DNA from: an uncultured Phascolarctobacterium sp. | GTDB lineage: Bacteria > Bacillota > Negativicutes > Acidaminococcales > Acidaminococcaceae | Direction of reading: 5' to 3' | Assembly: GCA_949287345.1 (NCBI GenBank) | Contig: CASEGD010000019.1 | Coordinates: 1-19,804 of the forward strand | Length of the DNA stretch: 19,804 nucleotides | Part shown: positions 2,824-14,647 of the stretch, piece after piece | How positions within the stretch are numbered: the first letter of the stretch is position 1 | Layout of the letters: each line of letters opens with the position of its first letter | Notes under the pieces: generated by a model | Told to the model about the DNA's origin: nothing | Seen by the model: the letters and a program-made list of their open reading frames with translations, nothing else | Databases searched by the model: none | Made by a program: the position numbers and the translations under genes

Positions 2824-3091
2824 CCGGCAAATCCTCCAGCAGCTTGGCGTAAACTTCTTCGCTCACCGGCTTTTCCAAAGCACGTTCAAGGCGTTTTTCC
2901 TTCACCGCTTTGGTAATGCAGTCCTTACTGCGGCAAACATACGCGCCGCGCCCGGATTTTTTACCGGTCAAATCTAGCGCAATTTCGCCTTCCGGCGAAC
3001 GCACAATGCGCAGCAGCGCTTTTTTATCCTTCATTTCGCCGCAGCCGACGCATTTGCGCTGCGGGATTTTTTTAATCTTCTGCTGCTTCAC
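2813..3091 (-). CDS. ylxR: YlxR family nucleic-acid-binding protein
   Basis: A 92-aa YlxR (DUF448) protein. I place the start at GTG 3091 because GGAGGTGA sits just upstream with normal spacing and the protein then begins at the usual family N-terminus ([18 protein letters not shown]). A longer frame reading upstream would lie inside nusA. The gene therefore overlaps nusA by 20 nt and ylxQ by 11 nt. Visible motifs: the paired cysteines C14-x2-C17, then GRGAYVC (C53) and C58, with several basic residues, consistent with a small RNA- or DNA-contacting protein. Family members lie almost invariably between nusA and ylxQ/infB. Some work links YlxR to transcription regulation, but its function here can only be inferred from position. 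Confidence 0.93.
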
Positions 3092-4157
3092 CGGATTCAC
3101 CTCCGATGGGTTCAAAAGGTTCTTCCTTGCTCTGGGTTTCGCTCTTGATGTCAATTTTCCAACCGGTCAGCTTGGCTGCAAGGCGTGCGTTCTGCCCTTC
3201 CTTGCCAATAGCAAGTGAAAGCTGGTAATCAGGCACAACCACGCGGCAGATTTTTTCGTTTTCCAGCACTTCGGTGCTGATAACCTTAGCCGGAGAAAGT
3301 GCGTTGGCAACATATTGCGCCGGGTCTTCACTGTATTTAACAATGTCGATTTTTTCGCCGCGCAGCTCGTTGACGATTGCCTGTACTCGCATGCCCTTCT
3401 GGCCCACGCAGGCGCCTACCGGGTCGATGTTTTCATCTTTGGTATACACTGCGATTTTGGAGCGCATGCCCGGTTCACGCGCAACGGATTTGATTTCCAC
3501 CAAACCGTCATGGATTTCCGGAACTTCCAGCTCAAACAGGCGTTTCAGCAGCCCCGGATGTGTCCTGGAAACCATAATCTGCGGCCCTTTGCTGGTTTTA
3601 CGCACTTCCAGAATGTAGGTTTTCATTCTGTCATGGTATTCGTAAATTTCGCCCGGAATCTGCTCGCCGACAGTTAAAACTGCTTCGGCTTTACCAAGGT
3701 CAATATATACGTTTCTGTTTTCCATGCGCTGAATAACGCCGGTTACAATATCGTTCTCACGGTTGTAGTATTTTTCAAACACCATGCCGCGTTCTGCCTC
3801 GCGGATGCGCTGCACAACAACCTGTTTAGCATTCTGCGCTGCAATGCGGCCAAAGTTTTTCGGCGTCACTTCCTGCTCAACAATGTCGTCAAGTTCATAA
3901 CGCGGGTCAATCTTGCGCGCATCTTGCAGCGAAAGCTCGTTAGCGTCGTCCTCAACATTTTCCACAACATGCTTCTGCGCATATACATGCAGCTCGCCGG
4001 TTGTTCTGTTTAAATCAACGCGCACGTTCTGGTTGCTGCCAAAATTCTTTTTGTAAGCAGTTACCAGCGCTTCCTCAACAGCTTCAAACAGCACGGAAGG
4101 CTCAATGCCTTTTTCCTTGCCCAATTCCTGTACTGCCATAATAAAATCTGCGTTCAC
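3072..4157 (-). CDS. nusA: Transcription termination/antitermination protein NusA
   Basis: NusA (361 aa) binds RNA polymerase and modulates pausing and intrinsic termination. Domains: an N-terminal RNAP-binding domain at residues 1 to about 125; an S1 domain at about 135-199; KH1 with the GACVGQKG loop at 248-255; KH2 with [19 protein letters not shown] starting at about 317; then a short acidic tail (residues 340-361). It lacks the extra C-terminal acidic repeats of proteobacterial NusA, as is usual in Firmicutes. The start is GTG at 4157, eight nt after GGGGGAG. It lies 21 nt after rimP, and its last 20 nt overlap ylxR. The promoter and leader hairpin upstream of rimP probably also control this gene. 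Confidence 0.98.
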
Positions 4158-4178: not shown

Positions 4179-4655
4179 TTAAAAATCTATATGCGGTCTA
4201 ATCATAGCAATCTGTTTTCTGTCAAATACAACAGGGTTCTTGCTTTCGCGGCCCTTAATAATGGGCTTTGCGCTGACGGTTGCCTCATCGTGCGCTACCA
4301 GCACAGCAACAATCTCCTTGTTTTTCTCCCACGGCGCAAAAAATTTAATATCTACCTTTTTGCCGTAAGCGCTTTCAAAATCCTTGTCCTTTTTCAGCGG
4401 GCGGTCGATACCCGGTGAAGAAACCTCAAGATAATACTTATCTCTGATGGGGTCGCGCTCGTCCAGAACCTCCGTCAGCTTTTCGCTGACCATCTGGCAG
4501 TCGTCAATTTCAATGCCGCCGGGCTTATCAATGTAAATTCTCAGATACCAGTCCTTTTCGCGTACATACTCAACGTCCACCAGCGAAATTTCCGTTCCTT
4601 CCAAAATCTGCTCCGCCAGGGCGCTTACCAGTTTTTCAATTTCCGCACTCTGCAT
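4179..4655 (-). CDS. rimP: Ribosome maturation factor RimP
   Basis: RimP (158 aa; YlxS in Bacillus) assists assembly of the 30S subunit. The N-terminal alpha/beta domain contains LVDVEYVREKDWYLRIYIDKPGGI and DCQMVSEKLTEVLDERD. The conserved YYLEVSSPGIDRPLKK motif joins it to the C-terminal SH3-like barrel. The start is ATG 4655, because GGAGGTG at 4661-4667 lies five nt upstream. A longer in-frame extension to 4721 would begin inside the leader hairpin and adds a hydrophobic stretch not typical of the family. It is the first gene of the nusA-infB operon, behind a consensus promoter. Confidence 0.96.
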   Translation of the reverse strand: MQSAEIEKLVSALAEQILEGTEISLVDVEYVREKDWYLRIYIDKPGGIEIDDCQMVSEKLTEVLDERDPIRDKYYLEVSSPGIDRPLKKDKDFESAYGKKVDIKFFAPWEKNKEIVAVLVAHDEATVSAKPIIKGRESKNPVVFDRKQIAMIRPHIDF

Positions 4656-4695
4656 ATATTCACCTCCGCTTTTTCCTGCCCCTATAAGAGGAAAG

Positions 4696-4718
4696 AGCGG
4701 GTAAAATACCCACTCTCT
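4696..4718 (-). promoter_or_regulatory. Hairpin in the rimP-nusA leader, candidate attenuator
   Basis: The transcribed strand can form a 10-bp stem, AGAGUGGGUA / UACCCGCUCU, with a UUU loop and one G-U pair. It is followed by a pyrimidine tract UUCCUCUUAU. It starts about 22 nt after the predicted transcription start and lies about 40 nt before the rimP start. The U-tract is interrupted by cytosines, so as an intrinsic terminator it would be weak. That fits either an attenuator or simply a leader stem. No other terminator is visible after bcp. Confidence 0.6.
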
Positions 4719-4746
4719 CAAAAGAAGTCATAATTTTTCTTAATAT

Positions 4747-5270: not shown

Positions 5271-8200
5271 TTAAAACAAATCTATCTGGTCATTTTCCGG
5301 CAGGTCTTTTAAGGTGCCGTACTCTGCCAGCTTGTCTATTACAGATTTTGATACTTTTGAGCGCACACGTAAATCCTCCTGAGAGATGAACGGTACGCCC
5401 GTTTTACGTGCTTCGTCGATGCTTAACGCTGCCGCCGTACCGATGCCGCTTAACGCACCGAGCGGTATGCGCACGCCCTTTTCCGTCGGCAAAAAGCGTG
5501 TTGCATGCGATTTATATAAATCAATCGGCTCAAATTCAAAGCCGCGCTCCATCATCTCAACCGCAAGTTCCAGATACGTTACGGTATCCTTATCCCTGTT
5601 GTTTGCCTTGCCGCCCTGCGCATACACATCCTTAATAAAACGCTTCATGTATTCCTTGCCCTTGGCGATATAGGTCGCGTCAAATTCCGGCGCACGCACG
5701 CTGAAATATGCGGCGTAAAATTCTTTGGGGTAATGCACCTTACAGTAAGCAATCCGGTAAGCCATCAAAACATAAGCAATGGCGTGTGCTTTTGGGAACA
5801 GGTATTTAACCGTTTCGCACGATTTTTTAAACCATTCCGGAACGCCCGCTTCTTTCATAGCTTCCAGCATTTTCGGCTCTAATCCGTTTTTGGCGGCCTT
5901 GCCCTTACGCACATATTCCATCGTTTTAAACGCCAGGCTCGGCTCGACGCCCATGGCAATAAGGTTATTCATAACGTCGTCGCGCGTGGCGATAGTATCT
6001 TCAGGCGGCTTGCCTTCCTTAATCAAATCCTGCGCATTGTTCAGCCATACGTCCGTACCGTGCGAATAACCTGATACGCGCACTATCTGGCCGAAGTTTT
6101 TCGGCTGTACGTCCTCAACCATCTGGCGTACAAAGCGTGTACCGAATTCCGGTATGCCGTATGTGCCGACGCTGCTGTTAATCTGGTCAGGCGTTACGCC
6201 AAGCGCTTTCGTATTGCGGAAGATAGACATTGTAGCTTCGTCGCCGATAGGGATTTTGGTCGGCTTGATATGCGTAAATTCTTCCAGCAGCTTAATAACC
6301 GTCGGGTCATCGTGGCCGAGTATATCAAGCTTAACCAGCCTGTCGTTGATAGAATGGTAATCGAAGTGTGTCGTTACCGTCGGGCTGTCCTTTTCATCGG
6401 CAGGATGGTTCATCGGCGTAATGTAATGAATATCCATATTGCGCGGCACAACCATAATGCCGCCCGGATGCTGGCCCGTTGTGCGTTTCAGCCCGGCAAT
6501 TCCTTCAACAAGCCCCGCCATAAATGCCGGGTGCTTGGTCAGTCCTTTTTCCTCATAATATTTGCGCACGTAACCATAGGCGGTTTTGCTCGCCACCGTC
6601 GATATCGTACCGGCGCGGCAAACATTATCGCGCCCGAACAGTTCTTCGGTGTATTTATGAGCCACCGGCTGATATTCGCCGGAGAAGTTAAGGTCGATAT
6701 CTGGAACCTTGTCGCCGTGGAAGCCGAGAAATACGGCAAACGGAATATTGTGTCCGTCGCGCCACATCGGCGTTCCGCAATGCGGACAGTTTTTCTCCGG
6801 CAGGTCGAAGCCGGAAGCATATTCGTTATTGGTAAAAAATTCGCTGTAACGGCATTTTGGGCAGCGGTAATGCGGCGCCAGCGGATTAACTTCGGTAATG
6901 TCAATCAACGTAGCAACCAGCGATGAACCTACCGAACCCCTGGAACCAACCAGATAACCGTCGTCCAGTGATTTGCGCACCAGCTTGTGCGCAATATAGT
7001 ACAAAATCGCAAAGCCGTTGCTGATAATAGAATGAAGCTCGGTTTTGATTCGTTCTTCTACAATCTCCGGCAGCTCGTCGCCGTACCATTCATGCGCCTT
7101 GTCGTAAACCATTTGCGGCAGCGCTTCTACCGCGCCCGGTATCGAAGGCGAATAAAGCTGGTCGCGGTCCGGCACCGGCTTAATTTTATCTACCATATCG
7201 GCAACTTTGTTCGGGTTGGTTACACAAATTTCGTAAGCAACGTCTTTGCCGAGGTATTCAAATTCCGCCAGCATTTCTTCCGTGGTGCGATAATACAGCG
7301 GCGGCTGTTCGTCAGCGTCGCGGTAATGCTGCACGCCCTGCAAAATTGTGCGGAACTTGCTGTCTTCCGGATTTAAGAAATGCACGTCGCAGGTAGCAAC
7401 GGTCATTTTGCCCATCTGTTTGCCAAGTTCGTAAATTTTGCGGTTGTAAGCCTTCAAATCGTCAATGGTGCATTTATTTTCGCGCACCAGGTACATATTG
7501 TTGCCCAGCGGCTGAATTTCCAGATAATCATAGAACGAAGCGATTTTAATCAGTTCTTCGTCACTCTTGCCTGCCCTTACGGCGCGGTAAAGTTCACCTG
7601 CTTCGCAGGCAGAACCCAAAATCAAACCGTCGCGGTGCTCCTGAATAATGGCACGCGGCAACGCGGGGCGGTTGTTGTAATATTTTAAATGGCTAAGCGT
7701 AACAAGTTTGTACAAATTACGCAGGCCGGTTTCATTTTTAGCCAGTATGATGATATGGTCAAGCGGCGTTTTTTTGCCGCGTTTGGGCTTCAGGCTGTCC
7801 GTCGGTTCAATATCGGCTCCTTCAACACCGCTGTCGCTGATGAGATAGCCTTCCATGCCGAAAATCAGCTTCAAATCGCTGCCTTCGGCGGCATCATAAC
7901 AGAACGGAAAGGCCTGCACTACGCCGTGGTCTGTAATCGCCAGTGCCTTATGCCCCCATTTGATTGCCTTTTTAACCAAATCTTCCATCGGCGTCAGGGC
8001 GTCCAGCTTGCTCATTTTTGTATGGCAATGCAATTCTACCCTTTTAACCTCGGCATTATCCATGCGTTCTTCTTTTTCAATACGCATAATGCCCTTCGGC
8101 TCGATCGCCATCTCCTCAAAGGCATAACGGTCGCGTCTTGCATCGCCCATAATGCGCAGGTAAACGCCCGGCTTGATGCTGCCCTTAAACTTATGGCATT

Positions 8201-8885
8201 CCTCCAGTGTATCAAAGTACATATTAACGTAAATGCCGTTGGTATCGTCGCTTAAATTAAAGGTCAGCTTAACGCGGCCGGTGCGCAGCTCGCGCTCGTT
8301 AAATGAAGTCAGCACGCCGTCCTTATCAAAGCATTTTACAAACTGGCCTTCCACAACGACATTGTTTTCGTCTTCGGTAATATCATCCAACGGGCGCGGC
8401 TTGCCTTTAATGCGCTTGCCCCACAGCAGATTATCATCCTTTTTGCCGTTGCCGTACAAAAGTTCGTATGCTTTGGCAAATTCGGCATCAGCCTCACTGC
8501 CGCAGCTGCCCTGCTCGTCATAGGTATAACCTTCCAAATCGTTCTGCGGCGGTTCTTCCGGCAGAGGTATTTCCTCCGGCACGGGCTGACCACTGCAATC
8601 GGTTACAACAAATTCAGTTTCTTCCTGCGGTTCGGGCGGCAGCGGCACTTCGTCTGTCTTTGCCTTTCCGTTAACTGCCGTTTTGGCATTTACCTCCGCA
8701 TTGCAGCAGGTAAATTTAACACCGCCGTGCAAAGAAAAAGCAGCGGCAAGTTTTTCTGCCACTGCCAAAGTAAGCCTTTCTTCAACCGGAGCAGCAGCCT
8801 TATACTCAATTTCCCATTCCGACAATCCGGCTAAAAATTCAAAAAACTTGGCTGTATCGGGGATAATGCAATATTTAGCCTTCAT
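5271..8885 (-). CDS. polC: DNA polymerase III alpha subunit, PolC type, lacking the exonuclease domain
   Basis: The replicative polymerase of low-GC Gram-positives, 1204 aa; Bacillus PolC is about 1437. Order: short N-terminal domain (1-62), acidic Pro-rich linker (63-130), OB-fold (about 150-270), PHP domain (about 280-505), then polymerase. PHP ligands visible are H286, H288, D295, H320, E345, H377, C427, D500 and H502. In Bacillus PolC a roughly 190-residue DEDD exonuclease is inserted in the PHP after the YLxxD strand. Here that place (350-375) holds only a short Lys/Asp-rich linker, and no DxE, HNxxFD or HxxxxD exonuclease motifs appear anywhere. Polymerase features: zinc finger C675/C678/C700/C703, catalytic PDIDLNFSGE (D729, D731) and KLDILGHDDPT (D854). 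The C-terminus is QIDLF (1200-1204), a beta-clamp-binding motif. Start ATG 8885, GGAAGG six nt upstream. It lies 18 nt after the mgtC-like gene. Confidence 0.97.
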   Translation of the reverse strand: MKAKYCIIPDTAKFFEFLAGLSEWEIEYKAAAPVEERLTLAVAEKLAAAFSLHGGVKFTCCNAEVNAKTAVNGKAKTDEVPLPPEPQEETEFVVTDCSGQPVPEEIPLPEEPPQNDLEGYTYDEQGSCGSEADAEFAKAYELLYGNGKKDDNLLWGKRIKGKPRPLDDITEDENNVVVEGQFVKCFDKDGVLTSFNERELRTGRVKLTFNLSDDTNGIYVNMYFDTLEECHKFKGSIKPGVYLRIMGDARRDRYAFEEMAIEPKGIMRIEKEERMDNAEVKRVELHCHTKMSKLDALTPMEDLVKKAIKWGHKALAITDHGVVQAFPFCYDAAEGSDLKLIFGMEGYLISDSGVEGADIEPTDSLKPKRGKKTPLDHIIILAKNETGLRNLYKLVTLSHLKYYNNRPALPRAIIQEHRDGLILGSACEAGELYRAVRAGKSDEELIKIASFYDYLEIQPLGNNMYLVRENKCTIDDLKAYNRKIYELGKQMGKMTVATCDVHFLNPEDSKFRTILQGVQHYRDADEQPPLYYRTTEEMLAEFEYLGKDVAYEICVTNPNKVADMVDKIKPVPDRDQLYSPSIPGAVEALPQMVYDKAHEWYGDELPEIVEERIKTELHSIISNGFAILYYIAHKLVRKSLDDGYLVGSRGSVGSSLVATLIDITEVNPLAPHYRCPKCRYSEFFTNNEYASGFDLPEKNCPHCGTPMWRDGHNIPFAVFLGFHGDKVPDIDLNFSGEYQPVAHKYTEELFGRDNVCRAGTISTVASKTAYGYVRKYYEEKGLTKHPAFMAGLVEGIAGLKRTTGQHPGGIMVVPRNMDIHYITPMNHPADEKDSPTVTTHFDYHSINDRLVKLDILGHDDPTVIKLLEEFTHIKPTKIPIGDEATMSIFRNTKALGVTPDQINSSVGTYGIPEFGTRFVRQMVEDVQPKNFGQIVRVSGYSHGTDVWLNNAQDLIKEGKPPEDTIATRDDVMNNLIAMGVEPSLAFKTMEYVRKGKAAKNGLEPKMLEAMKEAGVPEWFKKSCETVKYLFPKAHAIAYVLMAYRIAYCKVHYPKEFYAAYFSVRAPEFDATYIAKGKEYMKRFIKDVYAQGGKANNRDKDTVTYLELAVEMMERGFEFEPIDLYKSHATRFLPTEKGVRIPLGALSGIGTAAALSIDEARKTGVPFISQEDLRVRSKVSKSVIDKLAEYGTLKDLPENDQIDLF

Positions 8886-9634: not shown

Positions 9635-11362
9635 TTAAGCGTTAACAGCCAGCTCCGCCAGAATATTTTTGATACCGGCTACATAATCGCCGTCCAACGG
9701 CAGATATTTAATTTCGCCGTTTTTGCGGATTTTAACTTCCAGCTGGCCGTTTGCCAGAGTTTTCGGGCCAACTACAACCCTTACCGGATAACCGATTAAG
9801 TCGGCATCCTTAAATTTAACGCCCGGGCGTTCGTTGCGGTCGTCGATAACGGTTTCCACACCGGCAGCTTTAAGCTCCTCGTAAATGGCTTCCGCCTTAT
9901 CCCAGGATTCTTTATCTTTAGCGTTCATCGGCACAACCAGCACTTCATACGGTGCAATGGTTACCGGCCAGATGATGCCGTTTTCGTCGTGGTTCTGTTC
10001 AATGGCGGCAGCCATGGTACGGCTTACGCCGATGCCGTAGCAGCCCATAACCATCGGGCATTCCTTGCCTTCTTCGTCAAGGAAGGTTGCGTGCAGCGCT
10101 TCGCTATATTTGGTAAACAATTTAAATACCTGGCCTACTTCAATGCCGCGGGCCTTAACAACCGGCGCGCCGCAGTGCGGGCAGGGGTCGCCTTCCTGAA
10201 TCATGCGGATATCGGCAACGTAGGTTACGTTAAAGTCGCGTTTCGGGTCAACATTCACAAAGTGGTAGCCCGCTTCGTTAGCGCCGCAGCAGATGTTGTG
10301 CATGTTCATAACAGTGCTGTCAACAACAACGGTTGCTTTGGTAAGGTCAATACCGACAGGGCCCATGTAGCCGCCGACGGTGCCTGCTGCAGTAAGCTGT
10401 TCTTCGCTTGCCATTTCCAGGCTGTCTTCCAGCACGCCGCAGGTATTGACGATTTTAATTTCGTTAACTTCATGGTCACCGCGTACAAAGCACAAAATCA
10501 AACCTTTATTGCTGTTATAGGCAACAGCTTTAACGGAATGGTCAACAGGCAGTTTCAGATATTCGCAAACAGCTGCAATGGTTTTGCATTCCGGAGTAAC
10601 AACCTTTTCCATCGGCTTAACTTCTTCGTCGGCCGCTGCAATCGGTTTCAGTTCCGCTTTTTCAACATTGGCTGCATAATCGCATTTGCTGCAGAAAACA
10701 ATTTCGTTTTCGCCGCTGCCCGCAATAACGGTAAACTCGTGCGAGCCGCTGCCGCCAATCGCGCCGGAATCCGCTTCAACCGGGCGGAAGTTCAAACCGC
10801 AGCGCGTAAACACCTTGCTGTAAGCGTCATACATTTTCTGGTAGGAAACATCCAAACCTTCAACATTTTTATCAAAGGAATAAGCATCCTTCATAATAAA
10901 TTCGCGCCCGCGCAGAAGGCCGAAACGCGGTCTTTTTTCGTCGCGGTATTTGTTCTGAATCTGGTAAACACATAAAGGAAGCTGCCTGTAAGAGCGCACG
11001 TCCTGACGGATAAGGGTTGTTACCATTTCTTCGTGCGTCGGGCCAAGGCTGAACGGCCTTTCATGGCGGTCCATCAATTTAAACATTTCCTGCCCGTAAA
11101 CATCCCAGCGGCCGCTTTCCTGCCAGATTTCCGCAGGCTGCACAATCGGCATCAAAAGCTCCTGCGCGCCGGTAGCGTCCATTTCCTCACGCACAATGTT
11201 TTCTATTTTTTTCAGCACGCGCCATGCCAAAGGCAGATAGCTGTAAATACCTCCGGCTGCTTTGCGTATAAAACCTGCGCGCAGCATCAGCTGATGGCTG
11301 ATAACCTCCGCTTCGGCGGGAACTTCCCTTAAAGTAGGAGCGTACATTTGGGATACTCTCAT
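9635..11362 (-). CDS. proS: Prolyl-tRNA synthetase, bacterial type with editing domain
   Basis: Class II aminoacyl-tRNA synthetase (575 aa) that charges tRNA-Pro. Motif 1 lies near residues 45-75, motif 2 is [16 protein letters not shown] (140-155), and motif 3 contains [13 protein letters not shown] (440-452). An inserted YbaK-like editing domain that clears Ala-tRNA-Pro spans about 240-385 (SVKAVAYN with K278). The anticodon-binding domain runs from about 467 to the end. Two CxxC pairs, C224/C227 and C394/C397, flank the editing insertion. From memory the E. coli enzyme has Ser/Asp at these places, so a metal site is possible. The ATG overlaps the ispG stop by one nt (TAATG), so translational coupling is likely. 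Confidence 0.98.
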
Positions 11363-12432
11363 TATTTATTCTTCCTTTCCGTCAAAATTTTGTCTATTTC
11401 TTTAAATAATTCATCAACTATTTCATCTTCGCGCACCTTGCGCAAAATTTCGCCCTTGCGGAACAAAAGCCCTTCGCCGATGCCGCCCGCAATGCCAACG
11501 TCGGCTTCACGCGCTTCGCCCGGCCCGTTAACCACACAGCCCATAACGGCAACTGTTATCGGTTCGGTAATGTCTGCCAGCTTCTTTTCCACCGTCAGTG
11601 CCAGCTTTTCAAGGTTAATCCTCGTCCTGCCGCAGGTCGGGCACGAAATTAAAGTCGGCCCATATTCACGCAGCCCCAACGCTTTTAAAATGGCAAAGCC
11701 GGTTTTAACTTCTTCCACCGGGTTGCCTGTCAGCGATACGCGTATGGTGTCGCCGATTCCTTCGGCCAGCAGCGTGCCAATGCCCACCGCCGATTTAATA
11801 ATCCCCGAATTAACCGTACCAGCCTCGGTAATGCCAACATGCAGCGGATAATCGCACTGCGAAGCCAGTAAACGGTAAGCGGCAACCGTTAAAGGCACAT
11901 CATGCGCTTTAAGAGATATTTTAATGTTGCGGTAATCCATGCTTTCCAAAATACGGATGTGACGCCACGCTGCTTCAACAAGTACTTCCGGCGTGGGATG
12001 CCCGTATTTTTCCAGCAAATCTTTAGGCAGCGAACCGGCATTTACGCCGATGCGTATTGGTATGTTCAGCGGCTTAACCGCTTCTACTACCGCACGCACC
12101 TTATCGTCGCCGCCGATGTTGCCCGGGTTCAGGCGCAGGCCGCTTATGCCTGCCTCCACCGCTGCCAGTGCCAGCTTATAATCAAAATGGATATCGGCAA
12201 TTACCGGTATCGGGCTGTTTTTACAAATCTCTTTCAGCGCTTCCGCCGCTGCCATATCAGGTACGGCGCAGCGCACAATGTCACAGCCTGCCGCCGCCAG
12301 CTCGTTAATCTGCACCAGCGTTGCCGCCGCGTCATCCGTTCTGGTGTTGGTCATGGACTGCACGGCAACGGGCGCACCGCCGCCGATTTTTACATTGCCC
12401 AACTGTATTTGCCTTGTTTTCCTGCGTTCCAT
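11362..12432 (-). CDS. ispG: 4-hydroxy-3-methylbut-2-en-1-yl diphosphate synthase (flavodoxin/ferredoxin)
   Basis: IspG (GcpE, 356 aa) converts MEcPP to HMBPP in the MEP isoprenoid pathway, using a [4Fe-4S] cluster and an external electron donor. The N-terminal TIM barrel includes [11 protein letters not shown] and RLNPGNIG. The C-terminal cluster domain has C264 and C267 (SCPTCGR), C299 ([10 protein letters not shown]) and the cluster-ligating E306. The length is typical of the short bacterial form without the plant insertion. Start ATG 12432 follows GAGGTGG, 12 nt after rseP. With dxr in the same operon it supplies precursors for UppS. The small ferredoxin encoded upstream could be its reductant, but that is only inference. 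Confidence 0.98.
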
Positions 12433-12444
12433 CAGGCCACCTCT

Positions 12445-13461
12445 TTATCTGGATATATCACTGAAAATTGCCCACACGGTTAAAGTCAGAATCAGCCCGA
12501 CGCCGATACTCTGAATCATCGTCGCCGCTCTTTCGCCCAACGGTTTGCCGCGCAGCGCTTCCAAAATCAAAAGCACAAAATGCCCGCCGTCCAGTGCCGG
12601 CAGCGGCAGCAAATTGATAATGCCAAGGTTGATGCTTAAAAGCCCGACAAGGTTCAGCAGCGGCATCCAGCCGCTTTCCGCAGCCTCGCCCGCTATTTTG
12701 GCAATGCCGATAGGGCCTGTAACATCTGCCGGGGCAGCGCCCGTAACGATTTTATACAAACCGTCCAGCATCATCACCATAATGTAGTACGTATATTTAA
12801 AGCCCATTTGCAGGGATTCAAAAATGCCGAAGTCCTTATGCTCAACCTGCGGCGAAATGCCCACCAGCGCTTTGCCGTAATTTTTATCAAATTCCGGTTT
12901 TAAGGTGTAATCCTTCGTCACGCCGTTGCGTTCAGCCGTCAGCGTTACTTCGTTTTCGCCGTAGGTATTCAGCTCCGTAACCATTTCGGTCCACGTAGCG
13001 ACAGGCTTGCCGCCAACTGCCAAAATTTTGTCGCCCGCCTGCAACCCTGCTTCAACGGCAGCTTTGCCCGGCATTACATAGCCAAGCACCGGTTTATCGA
13101 CAGGTACTTCCAGCCCGTTGGCTGCAAAAATGCCCGTAAACAAAAACACCGGCAAAATAAAATTCATCAAAACGCCCGCCATTATAACCAGCATACGCGC
13201 CGGTATCGGCTTGGACTTGAACGCTCCCTCATCGGCAGGCTCATCCGGCTCCATGCCGGCAATTTTATTATACCCGCCCAGCGGGATAATCCTTAAACTG
13301 TACAGCGTTTCGCCATATTTCTTCTGAAAAATGTTCGGACCGAAGCCGATGGCAAATTCATCGACGCGCATGCCCGTCATTTTTGCGGTAATAAAGTGCC
13401 CGAATTCGTGTACCGTTACCAGTACGCCGAACACAAAAAGGGCCGCAAGCAAAGTTGTCAC
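12445..13461 (-). CDS. rseP: Site-2 protease RseP/RasP-type intramembrane metalloprotease
   Basis: M50-family zinc protease (338 aa) that cleaves transmembrane anti-sigma factors and signal-peptide remnants within the membrane. The zinc motif HEFGH is at 18-22 in the first membrane helix, and the third ligand lies in NLLPLPALDGGH (D291). One PDZ domain (about 122-190) follows the second membrane segment. Further hydrophobic helices are at about 88-115, 268-290 and 315-335. It has a single PDZ, as in Bacillus RasP, rather than the two of E. coli. The start is GTG 13461, six nt after AGGAGG, and 15 nt after dxr. The cdsA-dxr-rseP-ispG grouping is common in Firmicutes. Confidence 0.96.
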   Translation of the reverse strand: MTTLLAALFVFGVLVTVHEFGHFITAKMTGMRVDEFAIGFGPNIFQKKYGETLYSLRIIPLGGYNKIAGMEPDEPADEGAFKSKPIPARMLVIMAGVLMNFILPVFLFTGIFAANGLEVPVDKPVLGYVMPGKAAVEAGLQAGDKILAVGGKPVATWTEMVTELNTYGENEVTLTAERNGVTKDYTLKPEFDKNYGKALVGISPQVEHKDFGIFESLQMGFKYTYYIMVMMLDGLYKIVTGAAPADVTGPIGIAKIAGEAAESGWMPLLNLVGLLSINLGIINLLPLPALDGGHFVLLILEALRGKPLGERAATMIQSIGVGLILTLTVWAIFSDISR

Positions 13462-13476
13462 TAACTTCCTCCTGTA

Positions 13477-14628
13477 TTACAAGCTGCTCAAAAATCCGCG
13501 CGCTGCTTCGCGTGCAGCGGCGTCTGTATTTTCAATGTCGCTCAGCTCGGGCTGCAAAATATTTTTGTGCCCGGCAACGACATGTTCTATTGTCTTAATT
13601 ATATCAAGATATTTAATTTTGCCGTCCAAAAAGGCGTAAACCGTTTCTTCGTTGGCGGCGTTAAAGGCACACGGCAGCGTGCCGCCCTGCCTGCCGCATT
13701 CAACTGCAATTTTAAGCGCGGGGAAGGCTTCCGTATCCGGCGCTAAAAAGGTCAGCGTGCCGGCTTTTACAAAATCAAGCTGCCCAAAAGCATTGTCGTA
13801 ACGCTGCGGATAGGAAAACGCATACTGTATCGGCAGGCGCATATCCGGCAAACCCATCTGCGCAATGACAGAGCCGTCGTTAAACTCTACCATGCTGTGC
13901 ACAATGCTTTGCGGATGCACGACAACATCTATTTTATCATAAGGCATGTCAAACAGCCAGTGTGCTTCAATAACTTCCAGTCCTTTATTGGCAAGCGTGG
14001 AAGAATCAACCGTAATCTTTTTCCCCATGCTCCAGTTGGGGTGCTTTAAGCACTGCGCCAAAGTCACATCAGCCAGTTCTTCTTTGGTTTTGCCCAAAAA
14101 CGGACCCCCGCTGGCAGTAATAATCAGGCGTTTAACTTCATCTTTTTTGCCGCCCTGCAGCGATTGAAAAATAGCGCTGTGCTCGCTGTCGACAGGTGTC
14201 AGCGAAACGCCGTGTTTTTTTACGGCTTCCATCACGATGCTGCCTGCGGCAACCAGCGTTTCCTTGTTGGCAAGGGCAATATCCTTGCCGTGCTTAATTG
14301 CTTCCAGCGTCGGCAAAAGCCCTGCGTAACCAACCATGGAAGCCAGCACCGTATCGACGCCGTCGTAAGTAACTGCTTCAAGTAAGCCTTCCCTGCCCGC
14401 CAGTATTCTGGTTTTGCCGCTGTAACGCTCTTTTAAACGCTGCGCCGCCTTTTCATCGGTCAGCACTGCCATATCGGGGGCAAATTGTTCAATCTGCTCC
14501 TCCATCAGCACGTCGTTTACATGCGCCGCCAGCACTTTTATTTTCAGCTTATCGGGGTTGGCAGCCGCCACTTCCAGCGTCTGTTTGCCAATCGAACCCG
14601 TACTGCCAAGAACAGCTACGTTTTTCAT
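13477..14628 (-). CDS. dxr: 1-deoxy-D-xylulose 5-phosphate reductoisomerase
   Basis: Dxr (383 aa) carries out the NADPH-dependent conversion of DXP to MEP, the first committed step of the MEP pathway and the fosmidomycin target. Seen: nucleotide-binding GSTGSIG (8-14), ANKETLVAAG (120-129), metal ligands D147 and E149 in PVDSEHSAIFQ, TASGGPF (171-177), and NKGLEVIEAHWLF with E218. The ATG at 14634 would leave only one nt after GGAGG (14636-14640). The next ATG at 14628 has seven nt of spacing and gives the canonical N-terminus (MKNVAVLGSTG), so I use it. It lies 19 nt after cdsA. Confidence 0.98.
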   Translation of the reverse strand: MKNVAVLGSTGSIGKQTLEVAAANPDKLKIKVLAAHVNDVLMEEQIEQFAPDMAVLTDEKAAQRLKERYSGKTRILAGREGLLEAVTYDGVDTVLASMVGYAGLLPTLEAIKHGKDIALANKETLVAAGSIVMEAVKKHGVSLTPVDSEHSAIFQSLQGGKKDEVKRLIITASGGPFLGKTKEELADVTLAQCLKHPNWSMGKKITVDSSTLANKGLEVIEAHWLFDMPYDKIDVVVHPQSIVHSMVEFNDGSVIAQMGLPDMRLPIQYAFSYPQRYDNAFGQLDFVKAGTLTFLAPDTEAFPALKIAVECGRQGGTLPCAFNAANEETVYAFLDGKIKYLDIIKTIEHVVAGHKNILQPELSDIENTDAAAREAARGFLSSL

Positions 14629-14647
14629 CGCCATACCTCCAAGGGGA

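Follow-up and report, generated by a model that had tools for sequence, protein, structure and literature searches.

The polC locus

The window analyzed here is a stretch of 19,804 nucleotides from a Phascolarctobacterium-type MAG. Its minus-strand frame 8885..5271, open throughout as the earlier note had claimed, encodes a PolC of 1204 amino acids. In low-GC Gram-positive bacteria, the textbook replicase is a PolC that carries its own DEDDh exonuclease. The features of the locus are as follows.

5271..8885, minus strand: polC, PolC-type DNA polymerase III alpha subunit without an exonuclease domain (1204 aa plus stop)
8040..8885, minus strand: N-terminal and OB regions (residues 1-282; PHP boundary from Pfam, OB assigned by position with no Pfam OB match)
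7851..8039, minus strand: PHP part 1 (residues 283-345), ligands H286, H288, D295, H320 and E345
7758..7850, minus strand: 31-residue junction (346-376), the site of the DEDDh exonuclease in other PolCs (pLDDT <50 at residues 355-370)
7251..7757, minus strand: PHP part 2 (residues 377 to ~545, end approximate), ligands H377, C427, D500 and H502
7386..7388, minus strand: D500, PHP ligand 8, which is Asn in G. kaustophilus PolC
6777..6863, minus strand: four-cysteine finger (C675, C678, C700, C703), in invariant alignment columns
6693..6701, minus strand: D729/D731 in PDIDLNF, a motif present in the sequence
5274..5288, minus strand: QIDLF, putative C-terminal clamp-binding-like motif
3072..4157, minus strand: nusA, in the polC neighbourhood
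4179..4721, minus strand: rimP, in the polC neighbourhood
9635..11362, minus strand: proS, in the polC neighbourhood
11362..14634, minus strand: ispG, rseP and dxr, lying upstream in the polC locus

On one side polC is flanked by mgtC, proS, ispG, rseP and dxr, and on the other by a peroxiredoxin gene, rimP and nusA, an order that we take to be that of the usual Firmicutes polC locus. A DnaE-family search of the MAG found no second PolC. Given this locus and the single copy, the gene is an ordinary polC.

Pfam matched PHP, DNA_pol3_alpha, a finger domain and HHH_6 in the protein, which scored above the curated cut-offs for PolC (TIGR01405 / NF001688: 1308.7 bits vs 1043.45; 1405 vs 873). Both NCBIfam PolC models matched in two stretches each, the best of which starts past the exonuclease, at model position 608 of 1445 (PRK00448) / 369 of 1211 (TIGR01405). 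The phmmer alignment to 3F2B begins at residue 164, ahead of PHP at 283, in line with an OB region there. The polymerase, finger and clamp motifs, described as intact in the earlier note, were all in place: PDIDLNF, whose D729 and D731 are presumably the catalytic residues of the polymerase, the four-cysteine finger and the C-terminal QIDLF. About 24 N-terminal residues that are present in L002, P0002 and P0110 are missing, in frame, at residues 22/23 (about 8819), reflecting either a strain difference or an assembly slip.

The junction at the exonuclease site

The spacing from E345 to H377 is 31 residues in this PolC, compared with 208-217 residues in 48 exonuclease-bearing PolCs, and the DEDDh insertion in the PHP domain that marks a typical PolC is lacking. 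No Pfam match to RNase_T (DEDDh/DnaQ) was found in the protein, and no D-x-E-T/A motif in the 31-residue junction. An AlphaFold2 model of residues 270-1204, built from 34 natural sequences (pLDDT 87.4, pTM 0.80), had a floppy linker at residues 355-370 (pLDDT <50) and no extra domain at the junction; its best PDB match was G. kaustophilus PolC 3F2B (TM 0.91 over the query, 2.3 A). The PolC of the window has no DEDDh exonuclease insert, as claimed beforehand, and the clean junction had been placed, at 7750-7840, correctly to within a few codons.

The earlier note had named an assembly error as a possible cause of the gap. The MAG is in 207 contigs and its dnaE is frameshifted, so an assembly or binning artefact might have taken out an in-frame segment. 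However, the identical 31-residue junction is present in five other assemblies (L002-L006), one of which, the RefSeq record ET69, has no MAG label and is apparently from an isolate. Likewise, the junction is 30-33 residues long in 116 of the best 120 of 7961 homologous proteins (query included), the other four not fitting the junction pattern; PF00929 was absent from all 120, two of which are named as P. faecium PolC. Because the junction is common to independent assemblies and matched in the listed homologues, we excluded an assembly error at this site, and the chance of an artefact is negligible.

The closest relatives with structures are the Bacillus-type PolCs of G. kaustophilus (3F2B) and E. 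faecium (9QPC), which share the fold and the order PHP, palm, fingers and HhH. The native Bacillus-type enzyme has a DEDDh exonuclease in its PHP domain and Asn at PHP ligand 8, whereas the PolC of the window has no exonuclease and Asp at that position. In 9QPC the alignment is split by the exonuclease. In 3F2B the exonuclease had been removed for crystallisation (PMC12592400), and the chain has there a short GSGSG-containing linker that resembles the natural junction described here.

PolCs of this kind are in print. Exo-less PolCs were reported in 2013 in Clostridia and Negativicutes, at 6% of PolCs and with about 2000 genomes (Timinskas 2013, PMC3919608); as described there, they likewise consist of PHP, Pol3 and HhH without the exonuclease, and their hosts also encode DnaE1. 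We can name no domain-level difference between them and the PolC of the window, in which the insertion is absent and whose genome also has a DnaE1, frameshifted in the MAG itself and intact in five congeners. The protein thus joins the known exo-less PolCs, and the doubt in the earlier note as to whether this class had been described is settled: in outline, the finding has been in print since 2013 (PMC3919608). Passages of its main text give the 6% frequency and a question on the role of PolC, and contain no mechanism, loss count or dead forms (PMC3919608). Added here are prevalence, repeated changes, dead exonucleases and genomes without a PF00929 match, points for which a literature search covering titles, abstract openings and some full text (most subscription papers and all supplements lay outside it) found no prior report.

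In the MAG, dnaE lies in three pieces in its PHP region (G000:C56:1380-4323; L048, L050, L051), and it is intact in the five congeners searched; the breakage is probably an assembly error.

Distribution and history of the exonuclease in Bacillota

A PolC model was matched in 299 of 300 genomes of the class, over its cut-off in 282, and among the best matches, which are those listed, all begin at model position 369-382, just past the exonuclease. Thirty loci of the class had 12-13 residues at the junction, L032 being truncated further upstream. Among the PolCs seen, the exo-less state is general in the class.

We then classified a phylum sample of 199 genomes, of which 59 had an exo-bearing PolC, 82 an exo-less one (including one with a dead exonuclease), and 53 no PolC-level match (five of these 53 are <90% complete); five with a cut-off PolC were classed as undetermined. 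Besides the 30 loci, 60 PolCs chosen for family spread were fetched (48 exo-less or dead, 12 exo-bearing), and the other states rest on model coordinates and open-frame length, with three of the 59 exo-bearing calls made on fragments. The exo-less form is the commoner one in this sample, accounting for 82 of the 141 classifiable PolCs. We think that the difference from the 6% of 2013 is one of sampling. Since the exo-less form prevails in the sample, fidelity and inhibitor work on the PolCs of Bacillus, Staphylococcus and Enterococcus may not transfer to many Bacillota, including gut Negativicutes. In one PolC (L134:1-4601), the exonuclease site is occupied by 84 residues of Ala/Pro/acidic low-complexity sequence.

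In genus g187, loss of the exonuclease is seen in progress. The PolC of G434 (L154) carries a 198-residue insert, open in frame. Compared with the family-mate L167, whose exonuclease is intact, the insert shows 32% identity and the core 71%. The catalytic motifs of the insert are gone: DIETTG reads ALATTG, and neither HNAHFD nor HHRATDD survives. P0121 is almost identical to L154, and two protein clusters, P0122 and P0123, with cores ~92% identical to L154, have dead inserts too (72% and 65% identical over the searched region). In the PolC of G400 (L153), from the same genus, the core is 92% identical and a 39-residue stub is all that is left. The PHP nonet is perfect in the g187 PolCs. As read from these sequences, the exonuclease of g187 was inactivated in place, drifted and, in one member, was all but removed. 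Neither the G400 nor the G434 genome has a PF00929 match, indicating that no protein of that family replaced the exonuclease there. The description of the gap as clean loss and not decay therefore fits the protein of the window, and does not hold for g187, where the domain decays in place.

In a PolC tree of 102 cores with the junction columns left out, exo-bearing and exo-less proteins were interleaved and nine changes were needed, at least four of them forced by branches with SH-aLRT >=95, although this quick method can overstate support. The tree holds 102 of 137 rows (the other 35 are L011 and near relatives of kept rows), with L154 counted as exo-less. In a DnaE1 tree of 98 genomes (98 of 118 rows, with 20 of the 28 relatives' DnaE1 rows left out), the exo-bearing state needed 11 changes, at least seven of them forced, and the exo-less state also 11, at least nine of them forced. 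Counting states on this tree gave 20 changes among three states; like the counts above, this one does not distinguish gain from loss. These results show that the exonuclease state changed several times in the phylum.

The direction of change is a separate matter. It might be that the exo-less form is ancestral, with the exonuclease a later insertion that gene transfer then disseminated. When the DnaE1 tree was rooted at its midpoint and given an exo-bearing ancestor, a model allowing regain fitted 4.3 log units better than one of loss alone. In addition, the exo-bearing PolC of G351 lies far from the exo-less PolC of its family-mate G389, and the DnaE1s of the two are sisters; we read this disagreement between trees (L169 / L257) as horizontal transfer, which suggests that polC of G351 was exchanged. 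Against an exo-less ancestor, the dead exonucleases of g187 show loss directly, the insert site and family are identical in the inserts read, and PolC outside Firmicutes is reported to have the exonuclease, except for one extra Thermotogae copy (PMC3919608). We regard such an ancestor as highly improbable, and infer that the insert was lost, not never gained, in the PolC of the window. We also rejected exonuclease loss as a first step to loss of PolC: a model requiring that order fits worse by 5 log units, and the fitted PolC-loss rates are near equal (0.45 for exo-less and 0.53 for exo-bearing lineages; midpoint root, exo-bearing ancestor assumed).

Candidate proofreaders

The earlier note had proposed a stand-alone DnaQ-like protein or the PHP domain as the replacement proofreader. 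The genome of the window (90% complete) has one PF00929 protein, which is KapD-like but under the cut-off of that model, and, with the threshold relaxed to E<=10, still no match to TIGR00573. The congener G041, which is 100% complete, presents the same picture, and each of six genomes of the genus has one KapD-like exonuclease. This protein is far from the PolC exonuclease (40 bits). At E<=10, TIGR00573 was matched in two of eight genomes tried, and not in that of the window.

Across the class, a PF00929 protein is present in 188 of 196 genomes (that of the window and others >=97% complete), and no match was found in the remaining eight, all >=97% complete. In the phylum sample, genomes without a PF00929 match at E<=0.001 numbered 27 among the 82 exo-less and 23 among the 53 PolC-less ones. 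There were none among the 59 exo-bearing genomes, which is unsurprising because exo-bearing PolCs carry PF00929 themselves. Some PF00929 protein is thus present in 55 of the 82 exo-less genomes. Twenty-four of the 27 lacking a match are >=90% complete, five are single-contig (G314, G320, G397, G430, G476), and the 16 PolCs read from these 27 all have an intact nonet. Of 14 control genomes, the same search detected the family in 10; some DEDD families fall outside PF00929. Of the 51 genomes without a match, 20 are named, and the other 31 were deduced because they are missing from the 148 that have a match.

Ten stand-alone exonucleases of relatives share one type, the commonest among those read, which is PRK06195-like: two of the ten were scanned, and in both the best model was PRK06195 (NCBI name: epsilon), at 215 and 221 bits, under the cut-off of 373. 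These ten score 75-95 bits against PolC exonucleases and 163-327 bits against their own kind, indicating that they are not liberated PolC exonucleases; fission of the PolC exonuclease into a separate gene is thereby ruled out for them. L085 and L086 are nearer to the PolC exonuclease (136 and 128 bits), and for L085 the DEDD model PRK07883 gave 172.8 bits, more than either PolC model (146, 139). L085 also has SLSLF near its N-terminus.

We next considered the PHP metal site. The nonet of the window's PolC reads HHDHEHCDH (286, 288, 295, 320, 345, 377, 427, 500, 502), which agrees with the pattern HHDHEH[C/H]DH, so the earlier proposal of the PHP domain as a candidate proofreader finds its nine metal ligands complete. 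The nonet is intact in 86 of 86 exo-less PolCs covering the site; the sequence of an 87th, L032, begins only at ligand 5, and all ligands from that point on are present. Among exo-bearing PolCs it is intact in 38 of 48, the ten exceptions being four with HHDHEHCNH, five from Erysipelotrichaceae and one from Tissierellia. These counts use 136 of 137 rows, L011 (truncated, no PHP) having been dropped. With kinship ignored, intact PHP is associated with the missing exonuclease (Fisher p 1.7e-5). By independent pairs on the tree, the same association gives p 1, because PHP disruption changed only twice. We therefore dropped this correlation as proof, and the nonet is not diagnostic, since 38 of 48 exo-bearing PolCs keep it. 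In DnaE1, the PHP nonet is intact in 116 of 118 sequences, and the other two are truncated.

In G. kaustophilus PolC, Asn at ligand 8 is the only ligand change of the PHP domain, and exonuclease activity was not detected (PMC3666897, PMC5636811); in the view of the authors of one report, robust exonuclease activity also requires residues beyond the ligands (PMC3666897). In M. tuberculosis DnaE1, the PHP substitution D226N abolishes the exonuclease (PMC5636811). From the order of the ligands, we read D226 as ligand 8. A 29-residue loop lines the PHP groove of that enzyme, and in PolC the corresponding loop carries the exonuclease (PMC5636811). M. tuberculosis DnaE1 and the PolC of the window thus both have a complete nine-ligand PHP and a loop at the same place, 29 vs 31 residues, but the former is a DnaE-type enzyme with demonstrated PHP activity (PMC5636811), whereas PHP activity of the latter is predicted. 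The question whether a PolC PHP domain is capable of proofreading is best put to natural exo-less PolCs whose PHP site is complete, the G. kaustophilus PHP that was tested being both inactive and altered at one ligand. In methanol-adapted Sporomusa ovata, a Glu-to-Lys change at 587 was placed in the PHP domain of a protein labelled 'PolC1', which the authors suggested may raise mutation frequency (PMC4632017).

On this basis, we propose, with a probability of about 0.55, that the PHP domain of PolC, with that of DnaE1 as a second site, proofreads in place of the lost DEDDh exonuclease. The domain retains its nine metal ligands, including Asp at position 8, where the inactive G. kaustophilus PHP has Asn. 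If PolC does proofread, it would move the primer 3' end into the PHP metal site, by analogy with M. tuberculosis DnaE1, and the 31-residue junction would stand in for the PHP loop bordering the primer path of that enzyme. The co-resident DnaE1, whose PHP site is intact in the relatives read, could act as the second proofreader. The PHP sites of both polymerases are thus predicted to be active exonucleases. In favour of this proposal are the nonet counts for exo-less PolC and for DnaE1, the Asn at ligand 8 of the inactive G. kaustophilus PHP, the effect of D226N and the similar loop in M. tuberculosis DnaE1, the 27 exo-less genomes without PF00929, and the lack of a PF00929 match in G400 and G434. 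The independent-pairs result, the nonets of exo-bearing PolCs, the prevalence of PF00929 in the class, the published view that residues beyond the ligands also count, DEDD proteins that PF00929 may miss and the better fit of the regain model speak against it.

The main rival, which we consider unlikely, is that PolC needs no proofreader of its own: DnaE1, with its intact PHP, would do the bulk of synthesis or correct PolC in trans, and PolC, as an accessory enzyme, would have shed an unneeded exonuclease. This was raised in the 2013 paper (PMC3919608), and B. subtilis offers a precedent for proofreading in trans, by PolC for DnaE3 (PMC12926913). A DnaE-type match over cut-off was found in 196 of the 199 phylum genomes, and 53 of the 199 have no PolC-level match, indicating that DnaE1 can suffice; polC of G106 is broken by frameshifts, though these may be sequencing errors. 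Yet PolC exceeds the family cut-off in 282 of 300 class genomes, polC of the window sits at the usual locus and encodes the catalytic, finger and clamp motifs, the fitted rate of PolC loss is not higher in exo-less lineages, and no PHP ligand is altered in the exo-less PolCs read. A stand-alone DEDDh exonuclease serving as an epsilon subunit, PRK06195-like in many Negativicutes and KapD-like in Phascolarctobacterium, is less probable still, and we doubt it. PF00929 proteins are widespread in the class, those of ten relatives are of one type with PRK06195 as the best model (below cut-off) for two, and the PRK06195-like exonucleases L088 and L092, from the family of the window, end in QVSLF, a tail resembling a clamp motif. 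Against this, the genus of the window has only the KapD-like protein, distant from the PolC exonuclease and without a TIGR00573 match; the eight class genomes and the 27 exo-less phylum genomes have no PF00929 match at all; and five genomes with exo-bearing PolCs (G310, G451, G402, G321, G367) are also among the stronger PRK06195 matches. The DnaQ proposal of the earlier note accordingly gains little here, and a helper exonuclease in trans is possible in genomes other than that of the window.

Returning to PHP proofreading, a wider statement can be made tentatively, at somewhat less than even odds: PolC of Bacillota may have shed its DEDDh proofreader many times, through a dead stage still visible in one genus, and a large share of these bacteria may be two-replicase organisms with no DnaQ-type proofreader in the cell and only the PHP exonucleases of PolC and DnaE1.

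Two other polymerase genes were unusual. In G106, a 96%-complete genome of the same family, polC (L296:538-3781) lies in five pieces in several frames, with 55-68% identity to the PolC of the window, owing to either recent decay or sequencing error. In family f43, the open frame containing DnaE1 extends over ~1700 aa, well beyond the usual length (G307:C1:378941-382153, G391:C1:2216872-2220147), which reflects either a fused domain or an intein.
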